NCBI GenBank assembly: GCA_964017235.1
Contig: OZ024931.1
Coordinates: 120,291,530-120,355,529, forward strand
Direction: 5' to 3'
DNA length: 64,000 bases
Source of the DNA: Sabellastarte sp. h YS-2021
Lineage: Eukaryota; Annelida; Polychaeta; Sabellida; Sabellidae
How positions within the stretch are numbered: the first letter of the stretch is position 1; each line of letters opens with the position of its first letter. Position numbers and translations under genes: made by a program. Shown here one piece after another: positions 6,871 to 61,395 of this stretch. Below the pieces are notes generated by a model that worked only from the letters and a program-made list of their open reading frames with translations, had not been told where the DNA came from and ran no database searches.

Positions 6871-9800
6871 AACTAGACCTAGCGCATCAGAGAACCGATG
6901 CAAATTGTATCCACCGTAAAGACAATGCACCAAAACCTCTAGGACCAATAATAGACCAGTTATAAGCACTTTTAAGTTTGGCTGTCCTCATTTGACCTTC
7001 AAGGAGGGGCCCAAGGTCAAAACCGACCACACCAGAAGATTCCCAGAACATGATTTCCTATATGTTGGTTTACTATCCCAAACATCTAGGACCAATAACA
7101 AGCGAGTTATAAGCACTTTTTAGTTTGGCTGTCCTCACACTTGACCTTGAAGGAGGGGCCCAAGGTCAAATCCGACCATGACAGAAGATTCCCAGCCCAT
7201 GATTTCCTGTATGTTGGTTTACCATCCCAAACCTCTAGGACCAATAATAAGCGAGTTATAAGCACTTTTAAGTTTGGCTGTCCTCATTTGACCTTGAAGA
7301 AAGGGCCCAAGATCAAATCCGACCATGACAGAACATTCCCCGCCCATGATTTCCTATAGGTTGGTTTACCATCCCAAACCTCTAGGACCAATAATAAGCG
7401 AGTTATAAGCACTTTTAAGTTTGGCTATCCTCGTTTGACCTTGAAGGAGGGGCCCAAGGTCAAATCCGACCACACCAGAAGAATCCCAGCCCATGATTTC
7501 CTATAGGTTGGTTTACCATCCCAAACCTCTAGGACCAATAATAAGCGAGTTATAAGCACTTTTAGGTTTGGCTGTAATCATTTGACCTTGAAGGAGGGGC
7601 CCAAGGTCAAATCCGACCACACCAGAAGATTCCCAGCCCATGATTTCCTATAGGTTTGTTTACCATCCCAAACCTCTAGGACCAATAATAAGCGACTTAT
7701 AGGCACTTTAACCTTTGGCTATCCTCGTTTGACCTTGAAGGAGGGGCCCAAGGTCAAATCCGACCACACCAGAAGATTCCCAGTGAATGATTTCCTATAT
7801 GTTGGTTTACCATCCCAAACATCTAGGACCAACAATAAGCGAGTTATAAGCACTTTTAAGTTTGGCTGTCCTCATTTGACCTTGAAGGAGGGGCCCAAGG
7901 TCAAATCCGACCACACCAGAAGATTCCCAGCCCATGGTTTCCTATACATTGGTTTACCATCCCAAACCTCTAAGACCAATAATAAGCGAGTTATAAGCAC
8001 TTTTAAGTTTGGCTGTCCTCATTTGACCTTGGAGGAGGATCCCAAGGTCAAATCCGACCACACCAGAAGATTCCCACCCCATGATTTCCTATATGTTGGT
8101 TTACCATCCCAAACCTCTAGGAACAATAATAAGCCAGTTATAAGCACTTTTATGTTTGGCTATCCTCGTTTGACCTTGAAGGAGGGGCCCAAGGTCAAAT
8201 CCGACCACGCCAGAAGATTCCCAGCCCATGATTTCCTATATGCTCGTTTACCATCCCAAACCTCTAGGACCAATAATAAGCGAGTTATAGGCACTTTTAC
8301 CTTTGGCTATCCTTGTTTGACCTTGAAGGAGGGGCCCAAGGTCAAATCCGACCATGACAGAAGATTCCCAGCCCATGATTTCCTGTATGTTGGTTTACCA
8401 TCCCAAACCTCTAGGACCAATAATAAGCGAGTTATAAGCACTTTTAAGTTTGGCTGTCCTCATTTGACCTTGAAGAAAGGGCCCAAGATCAAATCCGACC
8501 ATGACAGAACATTCCCCGCCCATGATTTCCTATAGGTTGGTTTACCATCCCAAACCTCTAGGACCAATAATAAGCGAGTTATAAGCACTTTTAAGTTTGG
8601 CTATCCTCGTTTGACCTTGAAGGAGGGGCCCAAGGTCAAATCCGACCACACCAGAAGAATCCCAGCCCATGATTTCCTATAGGTTGGTTTACCATCCCAA
8701 ACCTCTAGGACCAATAATAAGCGAGTTATAAGCACTTTTAGGTTTGGCTGTAATCATTTGACCTTGAAGGAGGGGCCCAAGGTCAAATCCGACCACACCA
8801 GAAGATTCCCAGCCCATGATTTCCTATAGGTTTGTTTACCATCCCAAACCTCTAGGACCAATAATAAGCGACTTATAGGCACTTTAACCTTTGGCTATCC
8901 TCGTTTGACCTTGAAGGAGGGGCCCAAGGTCAAATCCGACCACACCAGAAGATTCCCAGTGAATGATTTCCTATATGTTGGTTTACCATCCCAAACATCT
9001 AGGACCAACAATAAGCGAGTTATAAGCACTTTTAAGTTTGGCTGTCCTCATTTGACCTTGAAGGAGGGGCCCAAGGTCAAATCCGACCACACCAGAAGAT
9101 TCCCAGCCCATGGTTTCCTATACATTGGTTTACCATCCCAAACCTCTAAGACCAATAATAAGCGAGTTATAAGCACTTTTAAGTTTGGCTGTCCTCATTT
9201 GACCTTGGAGGAGGATCCCAAGGTCAAATCCGACCACACCAGAAGATTCCCACCCCATGATTTCCTATATGTTGGTTTACCATCCCAAACCTCTAGGAAC
9301 AATAATAAGCCAGTTATAAGCACTTTTATGTTTGGCTATCCTCGTTTGACCTTGAAGGAGGGGCCCAAGGTCAAATCCGACCACGCCAGAAGATTCCCAG
9401 CCCATGATTTCCTATATGCTCGTTTACCATCCCAAACCTCTAGGACCAATAATAAGCGAGTTATAGGCACTTTTACCTTTGGCTATCCTTGTTTGACCTT
9501 GAAGGAGGGGCCCAAGGTCAAATCCGACCATGACAGAAGATTCCCAGCCCATGATTTCCTGTATGTTGGTTTACCATCCCAAACCTCTAGGACCAATAAT
9601 AAGCGAGTTATAAGCACTTTTAAGTTTGGCTGTCCTCATTTGACCTTGAAGAAAGGGCCCAAGATCAAATCCGACCATGACAGAACATTCCCCGCCCATG
9701 ATTTCCTATAGGTTGGTTTACCATCCCAAACCTCTAGGACCAATAATAAGCGAGTTATAAGCACTTTTAAGTTTGGCTATCCTCGTTTGACCTTGAAGGA

Positions 9801-11395
9801 GGGGCCCAAGGTCAAATCCGACCACACCAGAAGAATCCCAGCCCATGATTTCCTATAGGTTGGTTTACCATCCCAAACCTCTAGGACCAATAATAAGCGA
9901 GTTATAAGCACTTTTAGGTTTGGCTGTAATCATTTGACCTTGAAGGAGGGGCCCAAGGTCAAATCCGACCACACCAGAAGATTCCCAGCCCATGATTTCC
10001 TATAGGTTTGTTTACCATCCCAAACCTCTAGGACCAATAATAAGCGACTTATAGGCACTTTAACCTTTGGCTATCCTCGTTTGACCTTGAAGGAGGGGCC
10101 CAAGGTCAAATCCGACCACACCAGAAGATTCCCAGTGAATGATTTCCTATATGTTGGTTTACCATCCCAAACATCTAGGACCAACAATAAGCGAGTTATA
10201 AGCACTTTTAAGTTTGGCTGTCCTCATTTGACCTTGAAGGAGGGGCCCAAGGTCAAATCCGACCACACCAGAAGATTCCCAGCCCATGGTTTCCTATACA
10301 TTGGTTTACCATCCCAAACCTCTAAGACCAATAATAAGCGAGTTATAAGCACTTTTAAGTTTGGCTGTCCTCATTTGACCTTGGAGGAGGATCCCAAGGT
10401 CAAATCCGACCACACCAGAAGATTCCCACCCCATGATTTCCTATATGTTGGTTTACCATCCCAAACCTCTAGGAACAATAATAAGCCAGTTATAAGCACT
10501 TTTATGTTTGGCTATCCTCGTTTGACCTTGAAGGAGGGGCCCAAGGTCAAATCCGACCACGCCAGAAGATTCCCAGCCCATGATTTCCTATATGCTCGTT
10601 TACCATCCCAAACCTCTAGGACCAATAATAAGCGAGTTATAGGCACTTTTACCTTTGGCTATCCTTGTTTGACCTTGAAGGAGGGGCCCAAGGTCAAATC
10701 CGATCACACCAGAAGATTCCCAGCCCATGATTTCCTATATGCTGGTTTACCATCCCAAACCTCTAGGACCAATAATAATCGAGTTATAAGCACTTTTAAG
10801 TTTGGCTGTCCTCGTTTGACCTTGAATGAGGGGCCCAAGTTCAAATCTGACCTCACCAGAAGATTCCCAGCCCATGATTTTCTATATGTTGGTTTACCAT
10901 CCCAAACCTCTAGGACCAATAATAAGAGAGTTATAGGCACTTTTATCTTTGGCTATCCTCGTTTGACCTTGAAGGAGGGGCCCAAGGTCAAATCCGACCA
11001 CACCAGAAGATTCCCAGCCAATGATTTCCTATATGCTCGTTTACCATCCCAAACCTCTAGGACCAATAATAAGCAAGTTATAAGCACTTTTAAGTTTGGC
11101 TGTCCTCGTTTGACCTTGAAGGAGGGGCCCAAGGTCAAATCCAACCACGCCAGAAGATTCCCAGCCCATGATTTCCTATATGTTGGTTTACCATCCCAAA
11201 CCTCTAGGATCGATAATAAGCGAGTTATAAGCACTTTTAAGTTCTGCTATCCTCGTTTGACCTTGAAGGAGGAGTCCAAGGTCAAATCTGACAACATCAG
11301 AAGATTCGCATCACATGATTTCCTATAGGTTGGCTTCACATTGCAAACCTCTAGGACCAATAATAAGGTAGATATAGGCACTTTTAAAGTCCGCT
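6871..11395 (+). mobile_element. F1-A: Helentron/HINE-like element with 147-bp satellite array
   Basis: The left end is aactagacctagcgcatc, with a hairpin derived from gcatcggagaaccgatgc, then the subTIR ttgtatccaccg. About 30 tandem 147-bp monomers follow; each contains accaataataagcgagttat and ttgaccttgaaggaggggcc. The right domain is lost just after aaagtccgct, so the 3' hairpin present in F1-D and F1-E is missing. Because 147 is divisible by three, stop-free frames of 268, 268 and 415 codons run through the array; they encode only the 49-residue monomer repeated and I do not call them genes. Close relatives sit at 22546, 32555, 34942, 48916 and 58960. Confidence 0.85.
7141..10700 (+). repeat. 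Higher-order repeat: three 1176-bp blocks (8 monomers each)
   Basis: Inside F1-A the same ordered set of eight variant monomers returns every 1176 bp. For example, the gaccatgacagaacattccc variant lies at about 7319, 8495 and 9671, and the cccagtgaatgatttcc variant at about 7770, 8946 and 10122. The translated blocks 7729-8535 and 8905-9711 are identical. The third block diverges after about 10695. This indicates recent unequal exchange or amplification, or an assembly duplication. Confidence 0.9.
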
Positions 11396-11433
11396 CAGTA
11401 CAGGTGATCTGACCTTTGACCTTGAGGCGACCC

Positions 11434-11745
11434 AAAGGGGTCACTCACCTGACCTTGAGTTTATGGCATGTGACCTCTGACCTTTGACCTGACCTTGATT
11501 ATCAGTGATCAGTATACATGTTTTTATGCTTCTTTTAATGTATTTAGTTTAACTTTACTTCAGTGTTATGTAACTTTAATTTATGTATAATCAGAATCAT
11601 GACAACTCACTTATACTTTATATTTTAACTTATTTTATGTAACCTGTGTATTCAGAAAATCTGACAGTCTTAGTTGTAACTTGTGTATCATACTTGGATC
11701 TGTATATATAATATAGTTAGAAATATACTGATATATATACTCAAA
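11434..11745 (+). repeat. Right copy of the identical 312-bp direct repeat
   Basis: Partner of 6549-6860. It is separated from the truncated F1-A array by ~40 bases that include ctgacctttgaccttgagg. The downstream flank (gactctaacatg) differs from the downstream flank of the left copy. Confidence 0.9.
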
Positions 11746-12135
11746 GACTCTAACATGTAAAAACATTGGAAAGGCAACTATATACATGGGCAAGAGGTTC
11801 CAAATCTTCTAGCTTTACCAAGAAATCGCTTTACTGCCAGGAAAATGCTTCTTAACTGTGTCAACAAGCCTCTGATAATGAAATAAATGTCTATCTAAAA
11901 GTCACTCTTCATCTTATTAGGAGAAATTCCAGTCTGTTAAATTAAATGAAGGGATAATCAAAATCTGACCTCAAAATTGACAAGTTTGTCACCCCGGATA
12001 TTCCATCTGACAGTTGCGTAGGGGGTAGGAGAGAGAATTAATCACAGTCACATGGCAAAAAAAAAGAGAAACAGAGAAAAATGATTACCGCATATTTCCC
12101 AAATACTGCCCATGTGTATCTTCATTGCAGGTTAA
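11746..12135. other. Unique spacer
   Basis: AT-rich DNA between the 312-bp repeat and the F4-A element. No gene or repeat recognised. Confidence 0.5.
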
Positions 12136-14540
12136 AACTAGAAATAGGCCGCCCTGTTGATAGTAGATGCGAATAGAAACAGGATAGCATAGAAGAACAC
12201 ACATTATCATCTGTAATGTCCACCCATGAACCTTTTGCCCAAATTGTACAGTAGTCTTACAAGACCCTGTTTCATTTGTAAAATATATCAATGATGCTTA
12301 AATATTTGTTAGTGTAGATGTAAATTATTTCAGCTTCATGCCTTTTTGCATTGGTTGGGTTGAAAATTTTGACGAAATCACTCTATCTTGCACGGTTAAG
12401 AAGATAGAAGCAAATTCCTGTTTTTCTATTTTGGGCAAAAATTTGAAAATTCAAAATGGCCGCCATTTTTGGAAAAAGGAAATTTTTTTGAAAATTGCCA
12501 AGAGTACATTTCTTAGATACCCTATGGGTCGAAAATTTCAACAAAATAACTCTATTTTGCACGGTTAAGGCCAGTTTGTGTTTTTCCATTTTGGGCAAAA
12601 ATTCGAAAATTCAAAATGGCTGCCATTTTTGGGGAGGGGAAAATTTTTTGAAAATTGCAAAGATTACATTCCTTAGATACCCTGTGGGTTGAAAAATTTC
12701 GACGAAATCGCTCTATCTCGCATGGTTAAGGAGATAGAAGCAAATTTGTGTTTTGCCATTTTTGGCAAAAATTTGAAAATTCAAAATGGCCGCCATTTTA
12801 GGGGAGGGGAAATTTTTTTTTAAATTGCCAAGAATACAATGCTCAAATACCTGTGGGTCGAAAATTTTGACGAAATCGCTCTATCTCGCATGGTTAAGGA
12901 GATAGAAGGAAATTTGTGTTTTGCCATTTTTGGCAAAACTTCGAAAATTCAAAATGGCCGCCATTTTTGGGGAGGGGAAATTTTTTTGAAAATTGCAAAG
13001 ATTGCATTGCTTAGATACCCTGTGGGTCGAAAATTTTGACGAAATCGCTCTATCTCGCACGGTTAAGGAGATAGAAGCAAATTTGTGTTTTGCCATTTTT
13101 GGCAAAAATTCGAAAATTCAAAATGGCCGCCATTTTTGGGGAGGGGAAAATTTTTTGAAAATTGCAAAGATTGCATTCCTTAGATACCCTGTGGGTCGAA
13201 AATTTCGACGAAATCGCTCTATCTCGCACGGTTAAGGAGATAGAAGCAAATTAGTGTTTTGCCATTTTGGGCAAAAATTCGAAAATTCAAAATGGCCGCC
13301 ATTTTTGGGGAGGGGAAAATTTTTTGAAAATTCCAAAGAGTACACTCCTGAGATACCCTGTGGGTCGAAAATTTCGACGAAATCGCTCTATCTCGCACGG
13401 TTAAGGAGATAGAAGCAAATTTGTGTTTTGCCATTTTTGGCAAAAATTCGAAAATTTAAAATGGCCGCCATTTTTGGGGAGGGGAAAATTTTTTGAAAAT
13501 TGCAAATATTACACTCCTTAGATACCCTGTGGGTCGAAAATTTCGACGAAATCGCTCTATCTCGCACGGTTAAGGAGATAGAAGCAAATTTGTGTTTTGC
13601 CATTTTTGGCAAAAATTCGAAAATTCAAAATGGCCGCCATTTTTGGGGAGGGGAAAATTTTTTGAAAATTACCAAGAGTACACTCCTTAGATACCCTGTG
13701 GGTCGAAAATTTTGACGAAATCGCTCTATCTCGCACGGTTAAGGAGATAGAAGCAAATTTGTGTTTTGCCATTTTTGGCAAAAATTCGAAAATTCAAAAT
13801 GGCCGCCATTTTTGGGGAGGGGAAAATTTTTTGAAAATTGCAAATATTACATTCCTTAGATACCCTGTGGGTCGAAAATTTTGCCGAAATCGCTCTATCT
13901 CGCACGGTTAAGGAGATAGAAGCAAATTTGTGTTTTGCCATTTTTGGCAAAAATTCGAAAATTCAAAATGGCCGCCATTTTTGGGGAGGGGAAAATTTTT
14001 TGAAAATTGCAAAGAGTACACTCCTCAGATACCCTGCGGGTCGAAAATTTTGCCGAAATCGCTCTATCTCGCACGGTTAAGGAGATAGAAGCAAATTACT
14101 CAAAAGTAGTACTGAAAATACACAATGAAGTACCTAAATGGCTATTACTCATGTACTGACAAAGCTATCAGTCCCAAATGCAATACCAAGCGAGCTATGG
14201 ACATAACAATCTTGTATTCAAAATTGTAGTAAAATATCTTTAATTATTTTGGCTTAAATGCACGGAAACCAATGGGTACTGAAAATAGCTGTACTTAAGT
14301 ATTACTCAGTAAGCAAAAGAGGTACAACAGCCAAAAGCAATCCCAAGCAAGCTACTGACCCAATAAGCCTGCATACCAAATTTGGTGACAATAGCTCTAA
14401 TACTTTTCCTTTAAATGAGCGGAAACCATGCGTGACGCCGGACATCGGACGCCGGACATCGGACATCGGACAACGGACATCGGACATCGGACGGCGAAAA
14501 AAGCAAAAATAATATATCCACCCCCCAGGGGGGTGGACAT
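12136..14540 (+). mobile_element. F4-A: HINE-like element with 169-bp satellite (about 10 units)
   Basis: The left domain starts aactagaaataggccgccc and shares ~200 bp with the element at 27539. An array of ~10 units of 169 bp spans about 12350-14095; each unit carries the palindrome aaaatggccgccatttt and ttttgccatttttggcaaaa. A ~400-bp unique right domain (from actcaaaagtagtactg) ends in a gacatcg-type minisatellite and a terminal hairpin ccaccccccaggggggtgg at 14518-14536. The flanks differ from those of F4-B, so the two are independent insertions. The 60-80 codon frames in both directions shift every unit (169 is not a multiple of three) and are not genes. Confidence 0.8.
14434..14500 (+). 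repeat. CpG-rich minisatellite, ~10-bp unit gacatcggac
   Basis: The motif ggacatcggac/ggacgccggac is repeated just upstream of the F4-A terminal hairpin. The matching tract in F4-B (32360-32405) is shorter, so copy number varies between copies. Confidence 0.75.
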
Positions 14541-15040
14541 AATAATAACTATATGGTACAGAGCACCTCCATTCAAACTTACAGTATTATTTTTGTCAAT
14601 CCATCAATCCAACTGATGCCTGGTTGAAATGCAGAACTTAAGATTGAAAGAAAGTTAATTTCTTTATTTGGGTTTTAACTGAAAGAAAGTTGAAGAACAA
14701 GAGGGGTTTCAGAAATTTGTGGCTTAAAGCAATAAAATGAAATGATAACTGTAATGCAGAAATTCAGACCTTCTTCAAAATAGTTTTCTAAACCAGATAA
14801 GAACAAGAAGTACTTGTAGAGAGCAGAACATATGACTTGATGTGACCTGATTCGTGAGTGTTATAAAGTATTCTATTAACACAGTTAACATGCTTTATCT
14901 GCCCAAATAGGTCTACAAGTTATTATCACAGGAATCCAAGAAAAGTGAGTGCCAGTGTTTTTTAAAAAAAAAGCCTTCAAGTTAGGAAAGATACCTTTGG
15001 CTAAATAAAGCTTGGAAATCCTTCTAAATTACATGTTTAA
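14541..15040. other. Unique spacer
   Basis: No gene, RNA or repeat recognised between the F4-A and F2-A elements. Confidence 0.5.
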
Positions 15041-16737
15041 AACTAGAGGAATGCTTTTGCTAACAAAAGCGAAGCATCCCTGAAAGTTTAAAATGCTTTG
15101 TGGTTTTAATAAGCATGCTGTAAAGCTAAGAATGCACAAAGCTGCACCGTATGCTTTCCCAATACCTCTTAATACATTCTGAAGCTATAAAAGCAATGAT
15201 AAAGGAGATATAAGGCAAAAACTCCAAAGCAGCTATTTATGACCCCAGTTTGGCCCATAAGGGGGGGTCGGGGGGTAAAACTGACCGGCTATTTAGACTC
15301 TCCACATATGCTTTCCCAATACCTCTTAATACATTCTGAAGATATAAAAGCAACAATAAAGGAGATATAAGGCAAAACTCCAAAGCAACTATTTTATTAC
15401 CTCAGTTTGACCCATAAGGGGGGGTCGGGGGATAAAACCGACTGGCTATTTAGATTCTCCACATATGCTTTCCTAATACCTCTTGATACATTCTGAAGCT
15501 ATAAAAGCAACGATAAAGGAGATATAAGGCAAAAACTCCAAAGCAGCTATTTATGACCCCAGTTTGACCCATAAGGAGGGGTCGGGGGGGTAAAACTGAC
15601 TGGCTATTTAGACTCTCCACATATGCTTTCCCAATACCTGTTAATACATTCTGAAGCTATAAAAGCAATGATAAAGGAGATATAAGGCAAAAACTCCAAA
15701 GCAGCTATTTATGACCCCAGTTTGGCCCATAAGGGGGGGTCGGGGGGTAAAACTGACCGGCTATTTAGACTCTCCACATATGCTTCCCAATACCTCTTAA
15801 TACATTCTGAAGGCATAAAAGCAACAATAAAGGAGATATAAGGCAAAACTCCAAAGCAACTATTTTATGACCTCAGTTTGACCCATAAGGGGGAGTCGGG
15901 GGATAAAACCGACTGGCTATTTAAATTCTCAACATACGCTTTCCTAATACCTCTTAATATATTCTGAAGCTATAAAAGCAACGATAAAGGAGATATAAGG
16001 CAAAAACGCCAAAGCAGCTATTTATGACCCCAGTTTCGCCCATAAGGGGGGGTTGGGGGGTAAAACTGACTGGCTATTTAGACTCTCCACAAATGCTTTC
16101 CCAATACCTCTTAATACATTCTGAAGCTATAAAAGCAACAATAAAGGGGATATAAGGCAAAAACTCAAAATCAGCTATTTTATGACCCCAGCTTGACCCA
16201 TAAGGGGGTCCGTGGGGTAAAACTGACCAGCTATTTAGACTCTCCACATATGGTTTCCTATTACCTGCCAGTACATTTTATGGCTCTAAATGCAATATTT
16301 AAGATAATAGGGGGGTTGACCTAAATTTAAGGCTTTCAGATTGGAAGGTGTCAGAAAATCACTCATAAATGAGACATTTTTCAAGAGATTGCTCCCCAAA
16401 ATCTAATCAGCTCAGGTTTTCGATAGTATGAACAGGTGTGTCAACTTATAAGGCTGTATAGCAAGTAGTTTTTCCTAACTGCGATGACGGGGGGTGGTGG
16501 GGTGGGGGTGTGTGTGTGTGTGTGCTTCAAAAAAATTGTTTTTGATCATGTGATCTTCATAAAGGTCAAAGGTCAAATTTAAGCATGCAGAAAAATTTCC
16601 CCACGCCTAAGGTATATAACTGCCAAATATGGTTTGAAACCTTCTAATAATAAGGGAGATATTCAAGGGAGACCATAATGCGGCGGCGGTTAGGAAACTG
16701 AGGCGAAAACAAATAAGCGCCCTTTCAGGGACGCTTA
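15041..16737 (+). mobile_element. F2-A: complete HINE-like element with 157-bp satellite
   Basis: The left end is aactagaggaatgc with hairpin gcttttgctaacaaaagc (15053-15070) followed at once by the subTIR aagcatccctgaaag (15072-15086). About seven to eight monomers of ~157 bp follow, each with cccaatacctcttaatacat and ataaaggagatataaggc; variants recur in groups of three. The right domain holds a G/T-rich tract, a cggcggcgg tract near 16681 and the matching subTIR ctttcagggacgctt (16722-16736), itself inside a hairpin. Both ends are present, so this is one of the most complete copies here. It encodes no protein. Confidence 0.85.
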
Positions 16738-17184
16738 ATTACTTTTGTGACTGTAATTTTGTTATTGAATGTACCAACACAATATCTATCAAAGTCAATT
16801 TGAAAAAAAAGTTGCACTTTGGTGTACTGTAAATTTTCTATGAGATTTAAAAAATCCAACCAGTTGCTGTGACAGTCTCAAATCCTCAGTAAACCCTTAC
16901 ATTTACAGTGTGTTATAATTGCTTTGATACGAATATTGTTTATGTGGCATTTGTTATGTAATGTGTGCATATTTACTTTAACATCACAATGTACAGAGGG
17001 CTGATTTATTCTGAACATCCTTAATTCTTTAACCTTTGGTTATACTTAAACAATTTTAGGGGAATGAATTAACACAATCGCTACGTTACATTACAAAACC
17101 AGAGGTAAATATGGAGGAGCTACTAAAGGTATGACTTACAACCCCTTACCCCCACTCCAGATTTATCCTGTGTCAGAGGTCCTT
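16738..17184. other. Unique spacer
   Basis: No gene or repeat recognised. Confidence 0.5.
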
Positions 17185-19926: not shown

Positions 19927-20004
19927 TTATAATACATGGGGGGGGGGGGGGGGAATAAATAATTATGTTACTGTCAGCTCTTGACAAAGGTATGATTGTG
20001 TTTA

Positions 20005-22337: not shown

Positions 22338-24458
22338 TAAAAATAGCATCAGAGATGCCCGTACCCCACAACCTGGGGAAAGAGTTTTTGACACCATGAG
22401 CTATAGAAGAAGTGAAACATAAAAAGATCAGGAGACTTTGAGAGTAAATAGTGTCAGATATATATAAAGGTCCAAATCAGGTTTAAGTGGAGAAAATAAT
22501 GTTAAGGAGAGAAAATGTATGTAAATATAAAGTACATGTATTAAAACTAGACCTATGCATCGGAGAACCGATGCAAAATTGTATTCACCGGAAAGCCAAC
22601 TCACCAAAGCCAGTAAAACATCATTTGACCTTGAAAGGTCAAATCTAACAACATCAGAAGATTCTCAGCCCATGACTTCCTATGAGTTGGTTTCACATTG
22701 CAAACCTCTAGGATCAATAATAAGCGAGTTATAAGCAATTTTAAGTTTGGCTATCCTCATTTGACCTTGAAGGAGGAGCCCATGGTCAAATCTGACCACA
22801 CTAAAACATTTCTAGCCCATGATTTCCTATAGGTTGGTTTACCATCCCAAACCGCTATGACCATTAATAAGCGAGTTATAAGAACTTTTAAATTTGGCTA
22901 TCCTCATTTGACCTTGAAGGAGGGGCCCAAGGTCAAATCCTTCAACACCAAAAGATTCCCAGCCCATGATTTCGTATAGGTTGGTTTACCATCCCAAACC
23001 TCTAGGACCAATAATATGCGAGTTATAAGCACTTTAAAGTTTGGCTATCCTCGTTTGGTCTTGAAGGAGGGGCCAAAGGTCACATCTGACAACATCAAAA
23101 GATTCCCTGCCCATGATTTCCTATGAGTTGCTTTCACATTGCAAACCTCTAGGATCAATAATAAGAGAGTTATAAGCACTTTAAGTTAGGCTATATTCGT
23201 TTGACCTTGTAGGAGAGGCCCAAGGTCAAATCCAACCACACCAAAAGATTCCTAGTGCATGATTTCCTATACGTTGGTTTACTATCAAAACCTCTTGGAC
23301 CAATAGTGAGTTATAAGCACTTTTAAGTTTGGCTTTCCTCATTTGACCTTGAAGGAGGGGCCCAACGTCAAATCCGACCACACCACAAGATTCCTAGCCC
23401 ATGATTTCCTATGTGTTGGTTTGCCATCCCAAACCACTAGGATCAATAATAAGTGAGTTATAAGCACTTTTAAGTTTGGCTGTCCTCATTTGACCTTGAA
23501 GGAGGGGTCCAAGGTCAAATCTGATCACATTAGAATATTCACAGCACATGATTTCCTATAGGTTGGTTTCACATTGCAACCAATAATAAGGGAGATATAG
23601 GCACTTTTAAAGTCCACTATGTGGGGTACTTTGGCACTCTGTGGATGACCTTGCAAACCTCTAGTTGAAGGTCATTCCATAACTTAGCACACTTACACTC
23701 CCCAAGTAATGACCAATCTAAGAATGTACTTTCTACACCTTACAGTTTCCACGATATGGCAAACAAGATTTTAAAGGTCAAGGCATTTCAGCAAGGCCAA
23801 AGGTCAAATCAAGGTCACACCATGACATTGCATACCTACACCCCTCAACCAAGTATCAACTTCCTCCGCCTTACGGTTGCTGAGATATAGCCCACATAAT
23901 ATTTTAAAGGTAAAGGTCACTACAGGAAGGTCAAAGGTCAAATCAAGGTCACACCATGACATTGCACACCTACACTACCTAACCAATGTCACTACAAAGT
24001 ATCAATTTCCTACACCTTATGGTTTCCAAGATATAGACAAGAAAAGATTTTAAAGGTCAAGACCACTACAGCAAGGTCAAAGGTCAAATCAAGGTCAAAC
24101 TATGACATTGCACACCTACACTTCCTAACCAATGTTAAGACCACTACAGCAAGGTCAAAGGAACATCACATAATGTTGCATACCTACACTCCCTAACCAT
24201 CCTTACCATGTATCACCTTCCTACACGTCATAGTTTCTGAAATACAGGCCAGACAAGTTTTCAAACTTAAGATCACTACAGCAAGGTCAAAGGTCAAATC
24301 AAGGTCACACCATGAAGCTGCACGCATGTCCCTACCAAGTATTAACTTCCTACACATTACTGTTTCCGAGATACAACCTGGACAAACTTTTTCCTGCCGT
24401 CGGCACACCATGGATAAAAACATTACCCGCACAGCCCTAATAAAGGCTGTGGGGTAAA
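22338..24458 (+). mobile_element. F3-A2: HINE-like element with 146-bp-type satellite, interrupted
   Basis: The left end has hairpin agcatcagagatgc (22345-22358) and subTIR-like gtaccccacaacc. At about 22546 an F1 element interrupts it. F3-type monomers (caaggtcaaaggtcaaatca, gagatatagcc) resume near 23690. The right end carries cagccctaataaaggctg and the subTIR ggctgtggggta (24445-24456). It has no coding capacity. Confidence 0.75.
22546..23665 (+). mobile_element. F1-B: F1 element nested in F3-A2
   Basis: It starts actagacctatgcatcgg with the hairpin and ttgtattcaccgg. About seven 147-bp monomers follow, then the transition sequence tttaaagtccactatgtggg. The left junction falls within a string (gtattaaa) that is uninterrupted in F3-C, so insertion into F3 is clear there. 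The right end lacks the 3' hairpin and merges into F3 repeats near 23665. Confidence 0.75.
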
Positions 24459-24761
24459 AATCCTTTAAAAAACTTCAGGATCCATACATGGATCTGGATC
24501 ACCACCAAAATTCAATCATCTGTTCCATGTGCCATTGTTGACATTTCTTGAAAATTTCATTAACATCTGTCCACAACTTTTCAAGTTATTTTGCAAACCA
24601 TTGCAAGCAAATGCATGCCACCGATTGCACATCCCTCTTTATCAGGGGTTAATTTATCTAGACATGTTTGCACCAGATGTACTAGCATCAGTGAACAGGG
24701 GATTCTCATAAGTATATAAATAGATAACGAAATAAAAGAACCAAAGGACTTAATAGAAACT
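24459..24761. other. Interspersed-repeat-like spacer
   Basis: 24490-24600 (tggatctggatcaccaccaa, later aaaatttcattaacatctgt and ttttcaagttattttgc) looks like the generic repeat arms seen around marine invertebrate transposons. It is not assigned to a family. Confidence 0.3.
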
Positions 24762-41211: not shown

Positions 41212-41239
41212 TACTAGTAGCCTTGTTGAAGGCTCAAGT

Positions 41240-48915: not shown

Positions 48916-50250
48916 AACTAGACCTATCGCATCGGAGAACCGATGCAAATTGTATCCACCAGAAGAAAACTCACCAAAGCCATTCTAACATCGCTTAACC
49001 TTGAAGGAGAAGCCCAAGGTGAAATCTGACCATATCAAAAGATTCTTAGCCCATGATTTCCTATAGGTTGGTGTGACACTGCAAACCTCTAGGAATACGA
49101 ATAAGCAAGATATAAACACTAATTTTGGCAATCCTCATTTGACCTTGAAAGAGGGGCCAAAGGTCAAATCCGATCACACCAAAAGATTCCCAGCCCATGA
49201 TTTCCTAGATTTTGGTTTACCATTCCAAAGCTCTAGGACCAATAATAAGTGAGTTATAAGCACTTTTAAGTTGGGCTATTCTCATTTGACCTTGAAGGAG
49301 GGGTCCAAGGTCAAATCCGACCGCAGCAATAGATTCCCAGCCCATGATTTCCTATAGTTTGGTTTACCATCCCAAACCTCTAGGACTGATAATAAGCGAG
49401 TTATAAGCACTTTTAAGTTTGGCTATGCTCATTTGACCTTGAAGGAGGGGTCCAAGGTCAAATCCGACCACACCAAAAGATTCCCAGCCCATGATTTCCT
49501 ATAGGTTGGTTTACCATCCTAAACCTCTAGGACCAATAATAAGCGAGTTATAAGCACTTTTAAGTTTGGCTATCCTCGTTTGACCCTGAAGGAGGGGTCC
49601 AAGGTCAAATCCAACCACACAGAAAGATTCCCAGGCCATGATTTCCTATAGGTTGGTTTACCATCCCAAACCTCTAGGACCAATAATAAGCGAGTTATAA
49701 GCACTTTTAAGTTTGGCTATGCTCGTTTGACCTTGAAGGAGGGGTCCAAGGTCAAATCTGACCACACCAAAAGATTCCCAGCCCATGATTTCCTATAGGT
49801 TGGTTTACCATCCCAAACCTCTAGGACCAATAATAAGGGAGATATAAGCACTTTTCATGACTGCAAAGAAATGCCTGTGGCGGCCATCTTGTTTTTCAAA
49901 ATGAGGCCAAAAATATTCCCAGTCAAGATTTTATAATGAGGAACATATCCTGCGAATTTGAGATCTCTACCTATAATACCCTTTGCTTTAGAGGGCCACC
50001 AAAAGTCCTTGTTTAAAGTCGAAAAACACCCGTGGCGGCCGTCTTGTTTTTCAAAATGAGGCCAAAAATATTCCCAGGCAAGATTTTATGGCTATGAATA
50101 TATCCTGCAAATTTGAGAAGGCTAGCTATAATATTTTTTTCATTAGAGCGGTAATGGTGAAATCTCTCTACACACTACGGCGGCGGCGGCGGCGTAGGCG
50201 TAACGAAGTCAAATCCATAGTATCCACCAGATGCTATCCGGTGGATACAA
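48916..50250 (+). mobile_element. F1-E: compact complete F1 element
   Basis: The left end is aactagacctatcgcatcgg, with hairpin and subTIR ttgtatccacc. Six to seven 147-bp monomers follow (some with ttgaccctgaagg variants). The unique 3' domain contains two copies of ggcggcc(a/g)tcttgttttt, a cggcggcggcgg tract at about 50178 and the terminal hairpin tatccaccagatgc/tatccggtggata ending ggtggatacaa (50240-50250). It is the best reference for the full F1 structure because it is not nested or truncated. Confidence 0.88.
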
Positions 50251-53232: not shown

Positions 53233-54184
53233 TTTACACAAGTATTCACCAAATTTCCCCTTTAAAAAAACAAAAACCTCTAAAATTCTGATTAAATATG
53301 TATGCCAACAAAATATATCCTCAAAAATACACAGAGTAAACTGTAAACTTCCAAAAATTTATGTATACACATCGAATTGCAGAAACTGTATATTAGCAAA
53401 AGCCAAGTCAAGTGCCCCTTATATAGGCTTTCGTTCATGAGAAAGCATCTTTCCATAAGTTTCCATAAAAGGTGAACGTTGAACGTTGACAAAAAAAAAT
53501 CTTTCCATAAGTTCCTGAGTGTCGTGGAAAACTACAATTCTATCCGTAAACCCCGTCCTTATTGTCCTTGGGGCGTCCTTATCATCTGTAAACCCTGTCC
53601 CTATTGTCTGTGGATAGATCCGTAAATATCCATGCATATCCGCAGACAAATTACATATCCGTGACCTTCTTCAAGGACCATCCCTATTGGTCTATGTGGT
53701 TTCCCACAATGTCCGATAACTTCCGGTGGTGTCCTTATAGCCTCCGAACATCCTCCGGGAATATACGTAGAAATTTTCCGAGCCATTATTGGCGCGGATG
53801 AGTCAAGGATGTCCCGGATACCACCCAGGAGATCTATGGCTGCTGTAAGAATGCTAGGGACGATTTACGGATTACATACGGATCAGTTGCGGATATTAAT
53901 TACACCTGTCATCCGCAAAACTTTTACGGAAAACTCAAGCAGCAGTTGGACTTTTCCATGGCATCCCCGGGGACACTTCCCATCCATGGCAAGATGCCAC
54001 AAGGGCATTATGGACGGTACAGACGTGTTCACGGATGAAAAATATGATCCATAAATCACTCACAATTTTCCATATTAGGTAACCTGCCGCGATCCGGTGG
54101 AACATCCGGCTATGTGTAACTGGGGTCTTATCACCGTGAGCAAAGGTTAGGTATTTCAACCACTTTCATAACAATCTCCAAATA

Positions 54185-55204
54185 AACTAGAGGAATGCTT
54201 TTGCTAACAAAAGCGAAGCGTCCCTTAAAGTTTAAAATGCTTTGTGGTTTTAATAAGCATGCTGTAAATCTAAGAATGCACAAAGCTGCACCGTATGCTT
54301 TCCCACTACCTCTTAACACATTCTGAAGCTATAAAAGCAACAATAAAGGAGATATAAGGCAAAAAATCCAAAGCAGCGATTTATGACCCCAGTTTGGCCC
54401 ATAAGGGAGGGTCAGGGGGTAAAACTGACCGGCTATTTAGACTCTCCACATATGCTTTCCCAATACCTCTTAATACATTCTGAAGCTATAAAAGCAACGA
54501 TAAAGGAGATATAAGGCAAAAACTCCAAAGCAGCTATTTATGACCCCAGTTTGGCCCATAAGAGAGGGTCAGGGGGTAAAACTGACCGGCTATTTAGACT
54601 CTCCACATATGCTTTCCCAATACCTCTTAATACATTCTGAAGCTATAAAAGCAACGATAAAGGAGATATAAGGCAAAAACTCCAAAGCAGCTATTTATGA
54701 CCCCAGTTTGGCCCATAAGGGGGGGGTCGGGGGGTAAAACTGACCGGCTATTTAGACTCACCACATATTCTTTCTCAATACCTCTTAATACATTCTGAAG
54801 CTATAAAAGCAACAATAAAGGAGATATAAGGCAAAAACTCAAAATCAGCTATTTTATGACCCTAGTTTGACCCATAAGGTGGGGCCAGGGGGTAAAACTG
54901 ACCGGCTATTTAGACTCTCCACATATGCTTTCCCAATACCTCTTAATACATTCTGAAGCTATAAAAGCAACAATAAAGGAGATATAAGACAAAAACTCAA
55001 AATCAGCTATTTTATGACCCCAGTTTGACCCATAAGGGGGGGCCGTGGTATAAAACTGACCGGCTATTTAGACTCTCCACATATGGTTTCCTATTACCTC
55101 CCAGTACATTTTATAGCTCTAAATGCAATACTTAAGAAGATAATAGGGGGGTTGGCCTAAATTTAAGGCTTTCAGATTGGAAGGTGTCAGAAAATCACTC
55201 ATAA
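54185..55204 (+). mobile_element. F2-B: 3'-truncated F2 element
   Basis: The left end aactagaggaatgcttttgc with its hairpin and the subTIR aagcgtcccttaaag matches F2-A. About five to six 157-bp monomers follow. The shared right domain stops abruptly after aaaatcactcataaa, where F2-A continues with tgagacattt. The next sequence (ctagattgggccaactcggc) could be the start of another element. No F2 right end was found further on. Confidence 0.8.
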
Positions 55205-55735
55205 ACTAGATTGGGCCAACTCGGCGCCAACATATCCCCAGACAGGTCATCACTCACGCCACAGGTTTTGATCAGGAATTTTTTATTTAATCCATTTGTT
55301 GTATGCCATAAATATTGGAAAAAGTTATATGAACTTCAGCACATCAATCTACTAAGTTTATATCTTCCCAAGGAAGATGATGGTGTATCCCCAGACGTCG
55401 AATACATAACTCAACAGATCATATTTTCAATCTTCCTGCAATGATAACTCTAAACCTATTTTCAAAGTATTTAAATGATTGATGATTGAATGTCCATTCT
55501 AAATTAATAATCTCAAAAGAGCATATCTGTTTCTATATTTGTTGACAAATAAAATATTATTTTTAACTCAACTCATCATACTTTTCAATCTTCCTGCAAA
55601 GGGTAACTCTGAACCTATTTTCAAAGTATTTAAATGATTGATGATTGAATGTCCATTCTAAATTCATAATTCCAAAAGCGTATCTCTGTTTCTATATTTG
55701 TTCACAAATAAAATATTATTTAAAAATCATATATT
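55205..55735 (+). other. Unclassified insert with a ~158-bp tandem duplication
   Basis: It starts actagattgggccaactcgg, similar to the actaga starts of F1, F2 and F4. A 77-codon frame (55211-55444) reads MGQLGANISPDRSSL and has no recognised domain. Segments 55424-55565 and 55582-55725 are near-copies (ttttcaatcttcctgcaa to gacaaataaaatattatt), each ending in AATAAA. It could be the 3' part of a mobile element or of a transcript. Confidence 0.4.
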
Positions 55736-56747
55736 ATTTATATTAATATTTTATTATATTATTTTTAGAATTTGCATTGTTTTTCAGTTATTCATTTTCT
55801 CAATTCCTATATATGTGGTCCATATATATGCAACCTAAATATGTGACACAATCTCAGTTCTGACTCCCTTTGTCTTAGATAATGAAGCAAACACCACCTC
55901 CCACCCCCACCCCACCTCTCTCCCCTTCTCCACACCTCTCTCACTATTACAGAAGATCTGTATACCTTTGTTTATTTAGTGTCACTCAATAGCTGCAGGT
56001 CCCAGAGGTGGGTGGGGGATGGGGGGTGGGACTACAAAGAGATAGAGTGCTGCAGCACAAATGGTAAACAAACACTTATAATATAAAAGGGGTAATCAAA
56101 TACAAAAAGCTCAGTTAATCTTATCACTAAAATAAAATCAAATATATAAATAAGGAATGTCCAACAGGAAGATTATATACCTCCAGAATTAAATATAAAT
56201 TATCAAACGACAAGAACAGATTTATAATAACAATTCAGAATTGAGAATTTTAAGTATGTGATTATCAATTGAAATGAGTTCGTAACTGTAGGAGCTGTGT
56301 CAAAATTAAGGCAAGTTGAATAAAACTGGGCTAGTTGAGGGTTAAAAATCCCCTATTTTTACTACATAAGGCTATAATTTCATTAATATTTGGGACTTAA
56401 AGCTCACCAGAAAATAACAGTGTCCATTTTGCCTATTTGAATATGTTTAACCAGTTTCATATTAAAAAGTTAAAAACTCAGCAAGCAGAGAGATAACACA
56501 CAAAAATAAGTTCTTAAAAGCCTAAGATAGCCATAACATTATTAATATTCAAAATTTAAATAGACAGGCACTTCCTTCGAAAAATTCAAAGATTTCAGCT
56601 CTATGAGCCACATAGTTTGACAGTTGACAGGACTTTAAAGTGGCATACTATCCATAAATTGGGTCTCTGTGGGCATTTTACAATTGTTAAAGAGACCTTA
56701 GCAATTAAACTACAGAACTGAAACTTTTTGGGGGACATACACAACAA
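55736..56747. other. AT-rich DNA with a C-rich/G-rich pair and an old repeat
   Basis: 55888-55930 is C-rich (cacccccaccccacctctct) and 56008-56030 is G-rich (ggtgggtgggggatgggg), capable of G-quadruplex or mutual pairing. 56575-56690 is a paralogue of the DNA flanking the transposon at 61566-63816. No gene recognised. Confidence 0.45.
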
Positions 56748-58612
56748 ACAAAAATAGCATCAGAGATGCCCGTACCCCACAGCCTTGGGAAATATTTTAA
56801 CACCATGAGATACCAGTACAAACTTCAGGATACTTTCAGAGCACTGTCAGTTATATAAAGGTCCAAACAATGTTTAAATGGATAAATAATGCTTAAAAGA
56901 AAGATAATGCATATAAAGATGAAGTATTAAAGCAAGATTATTCAATGACAAGATGACAGCATTAATCAGTAAACTAAAATTCAACACTCTTTATATACAT
57001 CTGCATTTCCGAATTATGGTTTAGATGGTTTGAATATTACCATGCATACAGAAGTGGTAATACATTCAATGAATGCTTACGAGTGGTCTTGGGAGTAAAA
57101 TCTGCGGCTCACTTGATGAAATTCTATCTCTTACAATGGGAAGTTATGAAAGTAAAATTCTTAATAAATTCTAATGTGACTTTTGCTTAATCTGCATCAA
57201 AAGACAGACCCAAAGGTGCAACAAGATTTTAAAGGTCAAGGTCACTACGGCAAGGTAAAAGGTCAAATAAAGGTCACACCATGATAATACACACCTATAG
57301 CCAATAACCAATGTCCCTACCAAGTATCAACTTCCTACACCTTACGGTTTCCGAGATACAGCCATGACAATTTTATAGGTCAAGGTCACTATGGCAAGGT
57401 CAAATCAAGGTCACACCATGATGCTGCACACCTGCACCCCCTGGCCAATGTCTCTACCAAATATCAACTTCCTGCACCTAACAGTTTCCGAGATATAGCC
57501 CGGACAATATTTTATAGGTCAAGGTCACTACGGCAAGGTTAAAGGTCAAATCAAGGTCAGACCATGATCTTGCACACCTACACCCCCTAATCAATATCCC
57601 TACCACGTATCAACTTCCTACACCTTACGGTTTCTGAGATATAGCCCAGACAACATTTTATAGGTCAAGGTCACTACGGCAAGGTCAAAGGTCAAATCAA
57701 GGTCAGACCATGACGCTGCACACCTACATCCCCTAAGCAATATCCCTACCACGTATCAACTTCCTACACCTTACGGTTTCTGAGATATAGCCTGGACAAG
57801 ATTTTATAGGTCAAGGCCACTACGGCAAGGTCAAAGGTCAAATCAAGGTCACACCATGACGTTGCACACCTACACCCCCTAACCAATATCCGTACCACGT
57901 ATCAACTTCCTACACCTTACAGTTTCTAAGATATAGCCCGGACAACATTTTATAGGTCAAGGTCACTACGGCAAGGTCAAAGGTCAAATCAAGGTCACAC
58001 CATGATGTTGCACACCTACACCCCCTAACCAATGTCTCTACCAAATATCAACTTTCCAAGCCTTACAGTTTCCGAGATATAGCCCGGACAACATTTTATA
58101 GGTCAAGGTCACTACGGCAAGGTCAAAGGTCAAATCAAGGTCAGACCATGACGTTGCACACCTACACCCCCTAACCAATATCCCTACCAAGTATCAACTT
58201 CCTACACCTTACGGTTTCCGAGATATAGCCCGGACAAGATTTTATAGGTCAAGGTCACTACGGCAAGGTCAAAGTCAAATCAAGGTCAGACTATAACGTT
58301 GCACAACTACACCCCCTAACCAATGTCCCTACCAAGTATCAACTTCCTACACCTTACAGTTTCCGAGATATAGCCCGGACAAGATTTTATAGGTCAAGGT
58401 CACTACGGCAAGGTCAAAGGTCAAATCAAGGTCAGATTATGACGTTGCACAGCTACACCCCCTAACCAATGTCCCTACCAAGTATCAACTTCCTACACCT
58501 TACGGTTTCTGAGATACAGCACGGACAAACTATTTCCCGCCGCCCGCCCGCCCATCCGGACACCATGGGTGAAAACAATACCCCAACAGCCATTAAGGGC
58601 TGTGGGTAAAAA
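56748..58612 (+). mobile_element. F3-C: complete HINE-like element with 146-bp satellite
   Basis: The left end has hairpin agcatcagagatgc and the subTIR taccccacagcc (56773-56784). A ~450-bp unique left domain follows, then nine or so monomers with a 145-146 bp period (57235-58530), each with ggtcaaggtcactacggcaa, aaggtcaaaggtcaaatcaa and ttacggtttccgagatatag. The right side holds cgcccgcccgcccatccgg and a hairpin acagccattaagggctgt containing the subTIR ggctgtgggta (58598-58608). It encodes no protein. Confidence 0.87.
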
Positions 58613-58676
58613 TTATATATAATACAGTTTAAGACTTGTCACACTAAGCATTTCCAAATAACAGGGCAAAATACAG

Positions 58677-61395
58677 AACAAGAGGAGAGTGCCCGTGAAC
58701 GGGCACTGTGTCAGCTGACTGAGTGTTTTTGATTTGTGAAGGTGATTACAGGACAGAATAATTATCAGGAAAAGGGCTGTACAGAAATACAGTAAATTGT
58801 AACTGAACAGCAAGTTCGAAAGAAATTCCGAAGCTGACAGAAGAAAAGGATAAAAAAGTTGTGCCCTGTAAATGGTATTATGAAGGAAAATAACAAGGTA
58901 ATTGTTTAAGTGTAAAAAATAGGTTAAAACATATTTAAAGAAATACTACAAATGCAATATCTTCGTTCGACCTTGAAGAAGGGGTCCAATGTCAAATCTA
59001 ACCACACAAATACATTCCCAGCCCATGATTTCCTATGGTTTACCATTCCAAACCTCTAGGACCAATTATAAATGAGTTATAAGCACTTTTAAGCTTGGCT
59101 GTCCTCATTTGACCTTGAAGGAGGGGTCCAAAGGTCAAATCTGACCATACCAAAAGATTCCGAGCCAATGATTTCCTATGGGATGGTTTACCATCCCAAA
59201 TCTCTGTCACCAATAATAAGCGAGTTGTAGGCACTTTCAATTTTCGCTATCCTTATTTGACCTTGAAGGAGGGTTCCAAGGTCAAATCGGACCATATCAA
59301 CAGATTCACAGCCCATGATTTCCTGTCTGTTTACCATCCCAAACCTCTGGGACCAATAATAAGCGAGTTATAAGCACTTTTAAGTTTGGCTATCCTTGTT
59401 TGACCTTGAAGGAGGGGTCATTGAAGGTCAAATCTGACCACACCAAAAGATTCCCACCCCATGATTTCCTACAGGTTGGTTTATCATCCCAAACCTCTAG
59501 GATCAATAATAAGGGAGATATAAGCACTTTTCATGACTGACAAAAAACACCTGTGGCGGCCATCTTGTTTCTCAAAATGAGGCCAAAAATATTCCCAGAC
59601 AACATTTTATGGTTATTAATATATACTGCAAACTTAAGAAAGCTAGCTATAATATTTTTTTTCATCAGAGCAGTAATGGTGAAATCTCTCTCTACACACT
59701 GCGGCTATCCAGTGGATACAATGATTTACTCAACAGTGAGAACCTGAAAGTAGCTATTGCTCAGCTATGCCATGACATAGAGGTCTGCAATTTCACTATG
59801 TTATAGCTGACCAAAAATTCTGTGAATAACATATTTAACAAATTACTCTAAATGTAATAGTTTTCAAGTTACAACTGATTTACTCAACAGTGAGAACCTC
59901 AAAGGAACTATTACTCAGCTATGCAATGAGCTACATGTCTGAAATTTTACTATGTTATAGCTAACCCAAAAGTAGGTGAACAACATATTTAAGCAAACTA
60001 CTGTAAATGCAATAGTTTTCAAGCTACAACTGATTTACTCAATAGTGAGAACCTGAAAATAGCTATTGCTCCGCTATGCCATGAGCTATAGGTCTGTAAT
60101 TTCACTATGTTATAGCTGACCCAAAAGTAGGTGAACAATATATTTTAACAAAATACTCCAAATGCAATATTTTTCAAGTTATAGCTGATTTACTCAACAG
60201 TCAGTACCTGAGATTAGCTATTGCTCAGTTGTGCCATGAGCTATAGGTCTATAATTTCACTATGTTATAGCTGACCCAAAAGTAGCTGAATAACATATTT
60301 GCACAAATTTCTGTAAATGCAATAGTTTTCCAATTATAACTGATTTACTCAACAGTGAGAACTTCAAAGTAGCTATTACTCAGCTATGAAATGAGCCACA
60401 GGTCTGAAACTTCACTATGTTATAGCTGACCCCAAAATAGGTGAATAACATATTGAAAGAAAATACTCTAAATGCAATAGTTTTCAAGTTATAAGTGATT
60501 TACTCAACAGTGATAACCTAAAAGTAGCTATTACTCAGCTATGCCATGAGCTACAGGTCTGAAATTTTACTATGTTATAGCTGACCCAAAAGTAGCTGAA
60601 TAACATATTTATACGAAATTCTCTAAATGCAATAGTTTTCAAGTTATAAGCGATTTACTCAACAGTGATAACCTAAAAGTAGCTATTACTCAGCTATGCC
60701 ATGAGCTACAGGTCTGAAATTTCACTATGTTATAGCTGGCCCAAAAGTAGCTAAATAACATATTTATACGAAATTCTCTAAATGCAATAGTTTTTAAGTT
60801 ACAAGTGATTTTACTCATAATGGAAGTTACTGAAAAGCCCAAAAGTAGCTATTACTCACTTAGCTATTGAGACAGACACCCAACTTACTCACCATATTGT
60901 AGCTATGAAAAAAGTAGCTGAACAACATATTTTAACAAAATGCTGTAAATGCAACACTTTTGAAGTTATAAGTGATTTAGTGCATGATTTCATGAATTTT
61001 AATGCATTAAAAATTATTAAAAAAATTTATTAAAAAAAAAGTAAGACAGATCCAGGTCTCATACTCACACAAGAGAATCTACCTCTGGCCTAGTACATAT
61101 ATGCAAGATATGAGAGAAATCCCTGCAATAGTCACTGAGAAAATTGTGATAAAAAGTTGAAATTTTCACACTTTTGGTGGGGGTACCCCCCTTGTAATGT
61201 CTCTAGCAAACAGACGAACAGACAGATTTGCATGCCTTGAACAATTTTTCATCCTCGATAGATAAGGTACCTTTTAAAAAAAACAGCATGTCTCTAGGCC
61301 TTGTAGTTTTGGAGAAGAAGTTGTTCACGTGGACGCATACGCCCACGCCGCAGAGTGATGACATAATGTCAGCTGACTGACAAGTCAGCTGACAT
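58677..61395 (+). mobile_element. F5: HINE-like element with 155-bp satellite
   Basis: The left end is aacaagaggag with hairpin agtgcccgtgaacgggcact (58688-58707) and the subTIR tgtcagctgac (58709-58719). Seven to eight monomers with a 154-155 bp period follow (starts at 59723, 59877, 60032, 60187, 60342, 60497, 60652, 60807; gatttactcaacagtgag). A unique 3' domain has a GC-richer patch (gacgcatacgcccacgccgc) and the terminal hairpin tgtcagctgac-tgacaa-gtcagctgaca (61367-61394). An F1 remnant sits inside the first monomer. Confidence 0.82.
58960..59722 (+). mobile_element. F1-F: 5'-truncated F1 nested in F5
   Basis: About three to four F1 monomers, then the F1 3' domain (ggcggccatcttgtttctca) and a shortened end ggctatccagtggatacaat. 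The left junction follows an F5 monomer string (aaatgcaatatctt) and the right junction is the start of the next F5 monomer. The F1 left hairpin is absent. Confidence 0.75.

Follow-up and report, generated by a model that had tools for sequence, protein, structure and literature searches.

Non-autonomous Helentrons with satellite arrays in a sabellid genome, and an autonomous Helentron that carries one of the arrays

A 64 kb stretch of the genome of the annelid Sabellastarte sp. h YS-2021 (assembly GCA_964017235.1, contig OZ024931.1, positions 120,291,530 to 120,355,529 of the forward strand; hereafter the window) is built up of mobile elements of a single superfamily inserted into one another, among which seven satellite-bearing families (F1 to F7) can be told apart. 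Our reading, to which we give a probability of about 0.82, is that these families are Helentron-associated interspersed elements (HINEs), that is, non-autonomous Helentrons, and that their satellites were inherited or generated within the elements and have diverged from one monomer lineage. The membership of the families among the HINEs is well supported, and for at least one family the ends, the target site and an autonomous partner all agree with it. This bears out an earlier note, made from the letters of the stretch alone, which had likened the elements to HINEs and Helentrons. The same note took so many unrelated satellites on one chassis as a sign of a satellite-capturing or satellite-generating mechanism; capture finds no support here, and generation is the better fit.

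An autonomous Helentron and its deletion derivative

Searches of the animal's own genome covered 1,785,957,881 bases in 647 contigs. The domain Helitron_like_N (PF14214) gave 24 matches among 36 candidates, all of which were scored. Among them, Helentron-A (C3:168.67 Mb) has one frame of 2245 residues, uninterrupted by stops, in which Peptidase_C48, DUF6570, Helitron_like_N, PIF1 and Exo_endo_phos domains were recognised (the last at 24.1 bits, just below the curated cut-off of 24.5), together with a PHLH motif of the HUH type. Judged by this predicted protein, which combines Rep (HUH), a PIF1 helicase and a C-terminal endonuclease, Helentron-A is an autonomous Helentron. About 700 bp past the frame lies a 3' end that shares 83% identity over 138 bp with the F6 3' end of the window. 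The 5' end, AGGCGGGTTGCG with its local inverse, is matched perfectly over 12 bp by the inverse found at this 3' end. The 5' end is followed by a GTCC microsatellite and then by an F6 array, and the F6 monomers contain this microsatellite of the element. Three more Helentron-A loci, with shorter frames, are 97.9–99.5% identical over the 1.4–6.4 kb stretches compared.

A short element on C1 (L115), reached through co-located 5' and 3' matches, aligns with positions 568–1175 of Helentron-A at 97.9% over 616 bp and then with positions 12009–12275 at 100% over 267 bp. On this alignment L115, an F6 HINE, is Helentron-A minus about 10.8 kb, the frame included, with the F6 array kept. Since it keeps the array of Helentron-A, the array was not acquired by the HINE; it belongs to the autonomous parent and would have been inherited through internal deletion, which leaves the idea of a satellite-capturing mechanism unsupported.

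The search for an autonomous Helentron with the same termini, proposed in the earlier note, thus yielded an F6 parent with F6-type ends, and for F2 it yielded a 5' end only. The latter belongs to Helentron-B (C3:189.22 Mb), which has Rep and endonuclease domains (Exo_endo_phos_2 above its cut-off, Pif1_2B_dom just short of it) and whose 5' end matches that of F2 at 74% over 90 bp. Two other sets of candidate parents were set aside. L010 and L016, considered for F2, have an F2-like 3' end (80% over 44 bp) downstream of Rep in the wrong orientation, and were counted as one neighbour because they are 99% copies of one another; the F5/F1 pieces beside Rep fragments in L028–L031 were taken as neighbours.

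Two further arrangements were seen at these loci. On the 3' side of the Helentron-B frame (C3:189214001-189231500, positions 13041-13290), an F5 and an F1 monomer are fused, the junction lying a short distance past the core described below. In a copy of Helentron-A (L012/L068, C11:69.20-69.21 Mb), an F7 element is inserted just past the HUH (PHLH) codons, and both F7 ends could be read.

Shared plan and end structures

The earlier note had drawn one plan for several families, with a hairpin and a subterminal inverted repeat (subTIR) at each end of a private satellite and a G+C-rich patch. This shared plan is real: all eight end motifs quoted are found as given (starts in Table 1), and arrays with periods of 147, 157, 146, 169, 155 and 133 bp adjoin the ends or sit between them. 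Its left-to-right orientation has to be reversed. The HINE plan is read on the opposite strand, where the 'left' hairpin is the 3' end and the 'right' hairpin the 5' end, because the 'left' end is positioned after the coding frame in the autonomous element. F4 had been described as having no clear subTIR; it does have one, ATGTCCACCCC, which starts at 32449 with its inverse at 27619, and in the other F4 copy the repeat was read from the sequence at 14540 with its inverse at 12217–12226. F6 is incomplete, as had been noted: the window copy keeps its 3' end and array, and a search for the parent-type subTIR string gave no 5' end. F7, from about 55205, was recognised beyond the six families first listed.

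SubTIRs, which in HINEs are 11–15 bp long, are present at both ends of F1, F2, F3 and F5. That of F4 has 11 bp with at most one mismatch, and those of F7 and of the F6 parent are 12 bp long and perfect, the window F6 offering a 3' end only. A structural search (11-bp subTIR with at most one mismatch, a local inverse, and a stem of at least 6 after the 3' subTIR) recovered F5, two F1 copies and one F4 copy among the matches listed for the minus strand, and missed F2 and F3. As a control, 10 dinucleotide shuffles gave 0–3 matches per strand (mean 0.7); the search also yields many spurious pairs on both strands, most with one arm in an array.

Hairpin stability was compared with that of shuffled sequences at both ends. 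All seven 5' hairpins, those of F6 and F7 being taken from Helentron-A and L012, were matched in stability by only 0–1 of 200 mononucleotide shuffles. At the 3' end the same is true of F1, F2 and F5 (0–1), the numbers of equally stable shuffles being 101 for F3, 64 for F4, 70 for F6, 156 for F7 and 158 for Helentron-A. The 3' termini of F1, F2, F4 and F7, written on the correct strand with a bar at the junction, are given in Table 1; those of F6 and F5 are CCTCTTG|TT and CCTCTTGTTC, and F3 has GCTA plus a T run. A terminal CTWG (CTAG or CTTG) is common to six of the seven families. Tandem Repeats Finder called the microsatellite of the 5' module in F4 and in the outer 5' module of Helentron-A, and by eye only, F1 and F7 show GCC repeats while F2, F3 and F5 have shorter runs rich in G+C.

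Boundaries of copies, target sites and empty sites

In each DNA search the best 40 candidates were scored, one of them the window itself, which leaves 39 other copies. Most of the scored copies start or stop at the hairpin/subTIR pairs, as the earlier note had asked to be checked. At the F1 3' end all 39 start at query 54–74 (window 6853–6873), 34 of them at query 65–72 (6864–6871), and at the F1 5' end 32/39 end at 37480–37488. For F3, 36/39 start at 56743–56751 (query 44–52) and 31/39 end at 58600–58624 (query 1901–1925). The F4 3' end is reached by 39/39 copies starting at 12125–12135 with 99–100% identity. Starts of F5 copies fall at 58665–58677 in 38/39 and earlier in the remaining one, and these matches do not reach the F5 5' end. 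The left ends of F2 are grouped at query 51–63, and its right ends lie mostly at 1758–1765, with others stopping short. Neither of the contrary outcomes named beforehand, boundaries elsewhere or terminal inverted repeats (TIRs) with target duplications, occurred.

The elements insert into A/T runs, and wherever an empty site could be rebuilt it shows no duplicated target. The base before the terminal ACTAGA is an A in 7/7 F1 rows (eight loci, one of them reversed and unmatched) and in 14/14 F2 rows, one of which reads ATTAGA; this A may be part of the element. Among the copies fetched, A-run flanks were found in 8/8 for F4 and, for F3, in 10/10 on the left and 9/10 on the right. The 3' flank of F5 reads GAA|CAAG in 8/8 copies fetched, so that GTTC may belong to the element. 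The empty site of the F7 element in the Helentron copy agrees with an uninterrupted copy at 90/90 bases, with no target duplication, and removal of F1 from the older F1 array rebuilds an uninterrupted array at the junction, again with no duplication. For Helentron-A, F3 and F5 the empty sites were rebuilt only roughly, in the case of F3 and F5 because the F7 units into which they inserted have diverged.

Relatedness of the monomers

The monomers had been said to differ completely between families. This is not so: F1 and F2 show homology along some 128 bp, the greater part of the unit, and a 16-bp core occurs in all seven monomers on one strand, so the satellites cannot be called unrelated. When consensus monomers were aligned and compared with 400 dinucleotide shuffles, F1–F2 reached z 8.3 (0/400), followed by F3–F6 (z 4.5, 2/400), F1–F4 (z 4.4, 2/400), F6–F7 (z 3.2, 5/400) and F1–F3 (z 2.8, 6/400). 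A motif finder given the seven monomers alone returned the same core in all of them, equalled by 0/300 shuffled sets, and of 64 possible strand assignments the one consistent with the elements ranks first (score 87.9). In leave-one-out scans, for which the core sites had been picked with all families in view, the core was found in all seven monomers, with 0/300 shuffles as good in five, 7/300 for F5 and 11/300 for F1; on the opposite strand the lowest value was 13/300.

In single-copy stretches (six 5' leaders and one 3' leader) the core is not significant, the best two giving 15 and 16/300 and the others at least 117. Within families, its variability is slightly below the family mean in six of seven and above it in F3, with ranks among all windows from 27 of 128 to 88 of 144. 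Because the core is not clearly less variable within families, we favour its common descent over constraint, without regarding it as proven.

Doubled 5' ends and stepwise array lengths

Each of the three Helentron-A copies that could be read at this end (L014, L015, L017) has two 5' ends, spaced 768, 599 and 764 bp apart; the 5' end of the fourth copy lies outside the stretch fetched. The doubled 5' module moves with the element, because the outer flanking DNA differs in each copy. Genome-wide, the exact 5' end (34 bases) occurs 1385 times and the exact 3' end (38 bases) 372 times, and reversed control patterns gave none. An excess of this kind is what multiplication of the 5' module by rolling-circle replication would be expected to give. 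On C1, the first 100 of the 5' ends listed form 77 clusters that include 21 pairs and one triple, and their 23 spacings are 428 bp, five at 568–592 bp, 15 at 711–776 bp, 1105 bp and 1751 bp, the three main groups differing by about one F6 unit (164–168 bp). An exact 3' end lies within 14 kb of 26 of the 77 clusters; of 28 3' ends, 25 are preceded by a 5' end.

Arrays change by whole monomers in other families as well. Both ends are recognisable in 14 of 30 F2 loci, and with a constant of 600 bp, chosen by us, 12 of these 14 come to a whole number of 157-bp monomers (from about 5 to about 9) to within 0.17, the two others being at 6.79 and 10.34. In a tandemly duplicated locus, four F1 elements follow one another at distances of 3218, 3805 and 3805 bp, a difference of 587 bp that corresponds to 4 x 147. 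At this place (C1:113106659-113117905, at 113.11 Mb) the locus holding the F1 element is duplicated fourfold in tandem. We rejected these copies as rolling-circle tandems: all four 5' ends have the same flank, so that the whole locus was duplicated.

Nested insertions

Within the window, F3 and F5 lie in F7, F7 lies in F2, and F1 lies both in F3 and in F1. Besides its own array, F5 carries an F1-type array with an F1 leader and a 5'-end remnant beside it, and 39/39 other F5 copies match unbroken through both arrays. These observations together indicate that an F1 element landed in F5 and lost its 3' end and that the composite then spread; the two satellites of F5 thus apparently go back to the insertion of one HINE into another.

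Origin of the arrays and alternative explanations

We infer that the arrays are built by rolling-circle replication. HINEs would move in this way using the enzymes of autonomous Helentrons. The satellite itself lies inside the element, with the 5' module on one side of it and the 3' end on the other. Replication would start at the 5' end and sometimes restart or slip in the 5' repeats, multiplying 5' ends and monomers but not 3' ends, and later deletion of the coding part would leave a HINE in possession of the array. For the most part the satellites would differ because a single monomer lineage, still recognisable by the common core, diverged long ago; fusion by nested insertion, as proposed for F5, would be an added source of diversity. 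A bolder extension, which we regard as tentative and rather doubtful, is that the satellite is a standing product of the Helentron's 5' module and not cargo. The stretch next to the 5' end would be multiplied repeatedly (first the monomers that lie between GTCC tracts and then entire 5' ends), such arrays would be carried by autonomous elements, and the many bivalve HINE satellites would descend from one ancestral 5' module with a core of the type CTNTAWCTYGRAAAC.

Several observations weigh against the main reading. Compared with shuffles, most of the 21 monomer pairs fall short of significance, and two opposite-strand controls are also high (F3–F7 z 3.9, F4–F5 z 2.8). The core weakens when F1 is left out, 1/300 shuffled sets then reaching it; the next-best strand assignments follow closely, at 86.1 and 85.9; and functional constraint on the core is not shown, as it is never among the extreme windows. 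With few of the 24 PF14214 matches read to their ends, the search gave no complete autonomous parent of F1, F3, F4, F5 or F7, the 3' end of Helentron-B was not found, and its 5' part is without an F2 array. As to the ends, 51 of the 77 5' clusters lack an exact 3' end within 14 kb, part of the 5' excess could be due to HINE subfamilies whose 3' ends differ, and the 3' hairpins of F3, F4, F6, F7 and Helentron-A are no better than those of shuffles.

One alternative is that a neutral chassis of HINE ends picked up unrelated, pre-existing genomic satellites, one per family. In its favour, periods and most of each monomer differ, most monomer pairs are without significant similarity, and the oyster authors favour independent incorporation for some elements (PMC7492417). 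Such capture is nevertheless unlikely in view of the F1–F2 homology, of the core in all seven monomers on one strand with the element-consistent strand set ranking first, and of an F6 array that lies inside the autonomous parent and whose monomers hold the element's own GTCC microsatellite. Cut-and-paste movement as miniature inverted-repeat transposable elements (MITEs) with long TIRs is suggested by the inverted sequence at both ends, and elements of the pearl type were formerly called MITEs (PMC7492417). With rebuilt empty sites that are without target duplication, an inverted repeat that on one side lies well inside the terminus, and an autonomous partner that codes for Rep, helicase and endonuclease domains, this must be considered highly improbable.

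A different possibility concerns only the core, which might owe its presence in all families to convergence, under selection for protein binding or as a nucleosome motif, instead of to inheritance. Only some 16–20 bp are common to all monomers, most monomer lengths are near nucleosome size, and the core is not significant in the single-copy leaders. The core is, however, not conspicuously invariant within families, and the F1–F2 and F3–F6 similarities extend in register well past it, so that convergence seems to us a possible but doubtful explanation and descent from one monomer lineage the better one.

Relation to known systems and significance

The same plan with many satellites is already known from the oyster Crassostrea gigas, where the several Cg_HINE families each have their own satellite-like repeat of 138–181 bp (PMC7492417). 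Our elements share with Cg_HINE the subTIR, the inverse repeat, oligo-T targets without target duplication, the occasional element with two arrays and, in some families, a GTCY-type microsatellite or a 3' palindrome (PMC7492417). They differ in that a satellite-bearing autonomous partner was found, whereas the oyster authors, as reported, could relate none to theirs (PMC7492417), and in that a core is common to all seven monomers and the two-array element could be traced to nested insertion. Arrays here reach about 30 monomers at most, compared with an oyster mean of 3.6 and a longest array of 29.3 (PMC7492417). From HINE-Mo and DINE-1 comes the view of HINEs as deletion derivatives of Rep-helicase-endonuclease Helentrons, with a subTIR, a TT target and no duplication (PMC4067079); compared by description only, the parent found here is unlike them in having a satellite array and two 5' ends. 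Plant Helitron arrays have many 5' ends and one 3' end, for which a rolling-circle model was proposed (Xiong et al. 2016, via the review PMC12628747). Ours resemble them in having several 5' ends per 3' end and 5' sequence amplified above 3' sequence (PMC12628747), but are Helentrons, with the doubling in each of three copies read and spacings in monomer steps. The bivalve satellites BIV160, Cg170 and HindIII and the pearl elements have been linked to Helentron-type elements and have two conserved motifs (PMC5139131); here too the likeness is by description only, and we claim no membership.

As far as literature searches show, the families described here, the satellite-carrying autonomous Helentron, the doubled 5' module and the shared core are new. 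The origin of satellite DNA is an old question, and the oyster work tied satellites to HINEs without an autonomous source (PMC7492417). One satellite has now been placed inside an autonomous, recently mobile Helentron and its deletion derivative, and the proposition that the parent carries the array thereby becomes directly testable in other families and species. An array borne by the parent is relevant to the question of how satellite repeats are produced and spread by mobile DNA, and the excess of 5' ends with spacing in monomer steps offers a measurable footprint of how arrays may grow.

Layout of the window

Table 1. Elements and end motifs in the 64 kb window (positions count from its first base; 'left' and 'right' as in the earlier note)
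Feature	Position	Strand	Description
F1 copy	6871..11404	-	3' end (GGTCTAGT|T, hairpin, subTIR) and array of ~30 x 147 bp; without 5' end
F4 element	12134..14541	-	3' end TTTCTAG|TTTT, subTIR, 169-bp array, GTCC-type microsatellite, 5' hairpin
F2 element	15040..16741	-	3' end CCTCTAGT|T, 157-bp array, 5' hairpin starting AAGCGTCCC
F3 copy	22340..24461	-	nested F1 inside, with 3' end at 22545 and array to ~23580
Second F4 element	27537..32450	-	~25 monomers
Older F1 element	32555..37850	-	interrupted by F1 element 34942..37480
Complete F1 element	34942..37480	-	sits in older F1 array; empty site A|A, no duplication
F6	38445..39557	-	3' end and array present
Complete F1 element	48916..50250	-	both ends present
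Second F2 element	54184..55205	-	5' side cut by F7 insertion
F7	55205..64000	-	3' end AATCTAGT|T, subTIR GTCTGGGGATAT; array unit ~351 bp; extends past window end; host of F3 and F5
F3 element	56751..58612	-	nested in F7; empty site weak
F5 element	58677..61396	-	nested in F7; ends and F1 remnant identified
F1-type array inside F5	58969-59531		
F1 leader and 5'-end remnant inside F5	59542-59725		
Own 155-bp array of F5	59717-60817		
End-motif starts, F1	left 6905, 34976; right 37469, 50239		
End-motif starts, F2	15072/16722		
End-motif starts, F3	56773/58598		
End-motif starts, F5	58709/61384		

A scan of the window found no tRNA genes and no RNA families at Rfam's thresholds. F6 contains at 38577–38811 an insert that the autonomous element is without; by eye it resembles a tRNA-derived short interspersed element (SINE), and ARAGORN and Rfam report nothing there. 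The right end is missing from the F1 copy at 6871, whose array stops near 11404 and whose flank is duplicated: positions 6549–6860 and 11434–11745 form a 312-bp perfect direct duplication on either side of the copy. Both junctions of this duplication carry short unrelated filler, and the event looks recent. The F1 array at 7226–10900 shows a higher-order repetition every 1176 bp (8 monomers). Elsewhere in the genome, an F3 copy (L071, 4452–4893) has short ATAAACGTTT repeats inserted.

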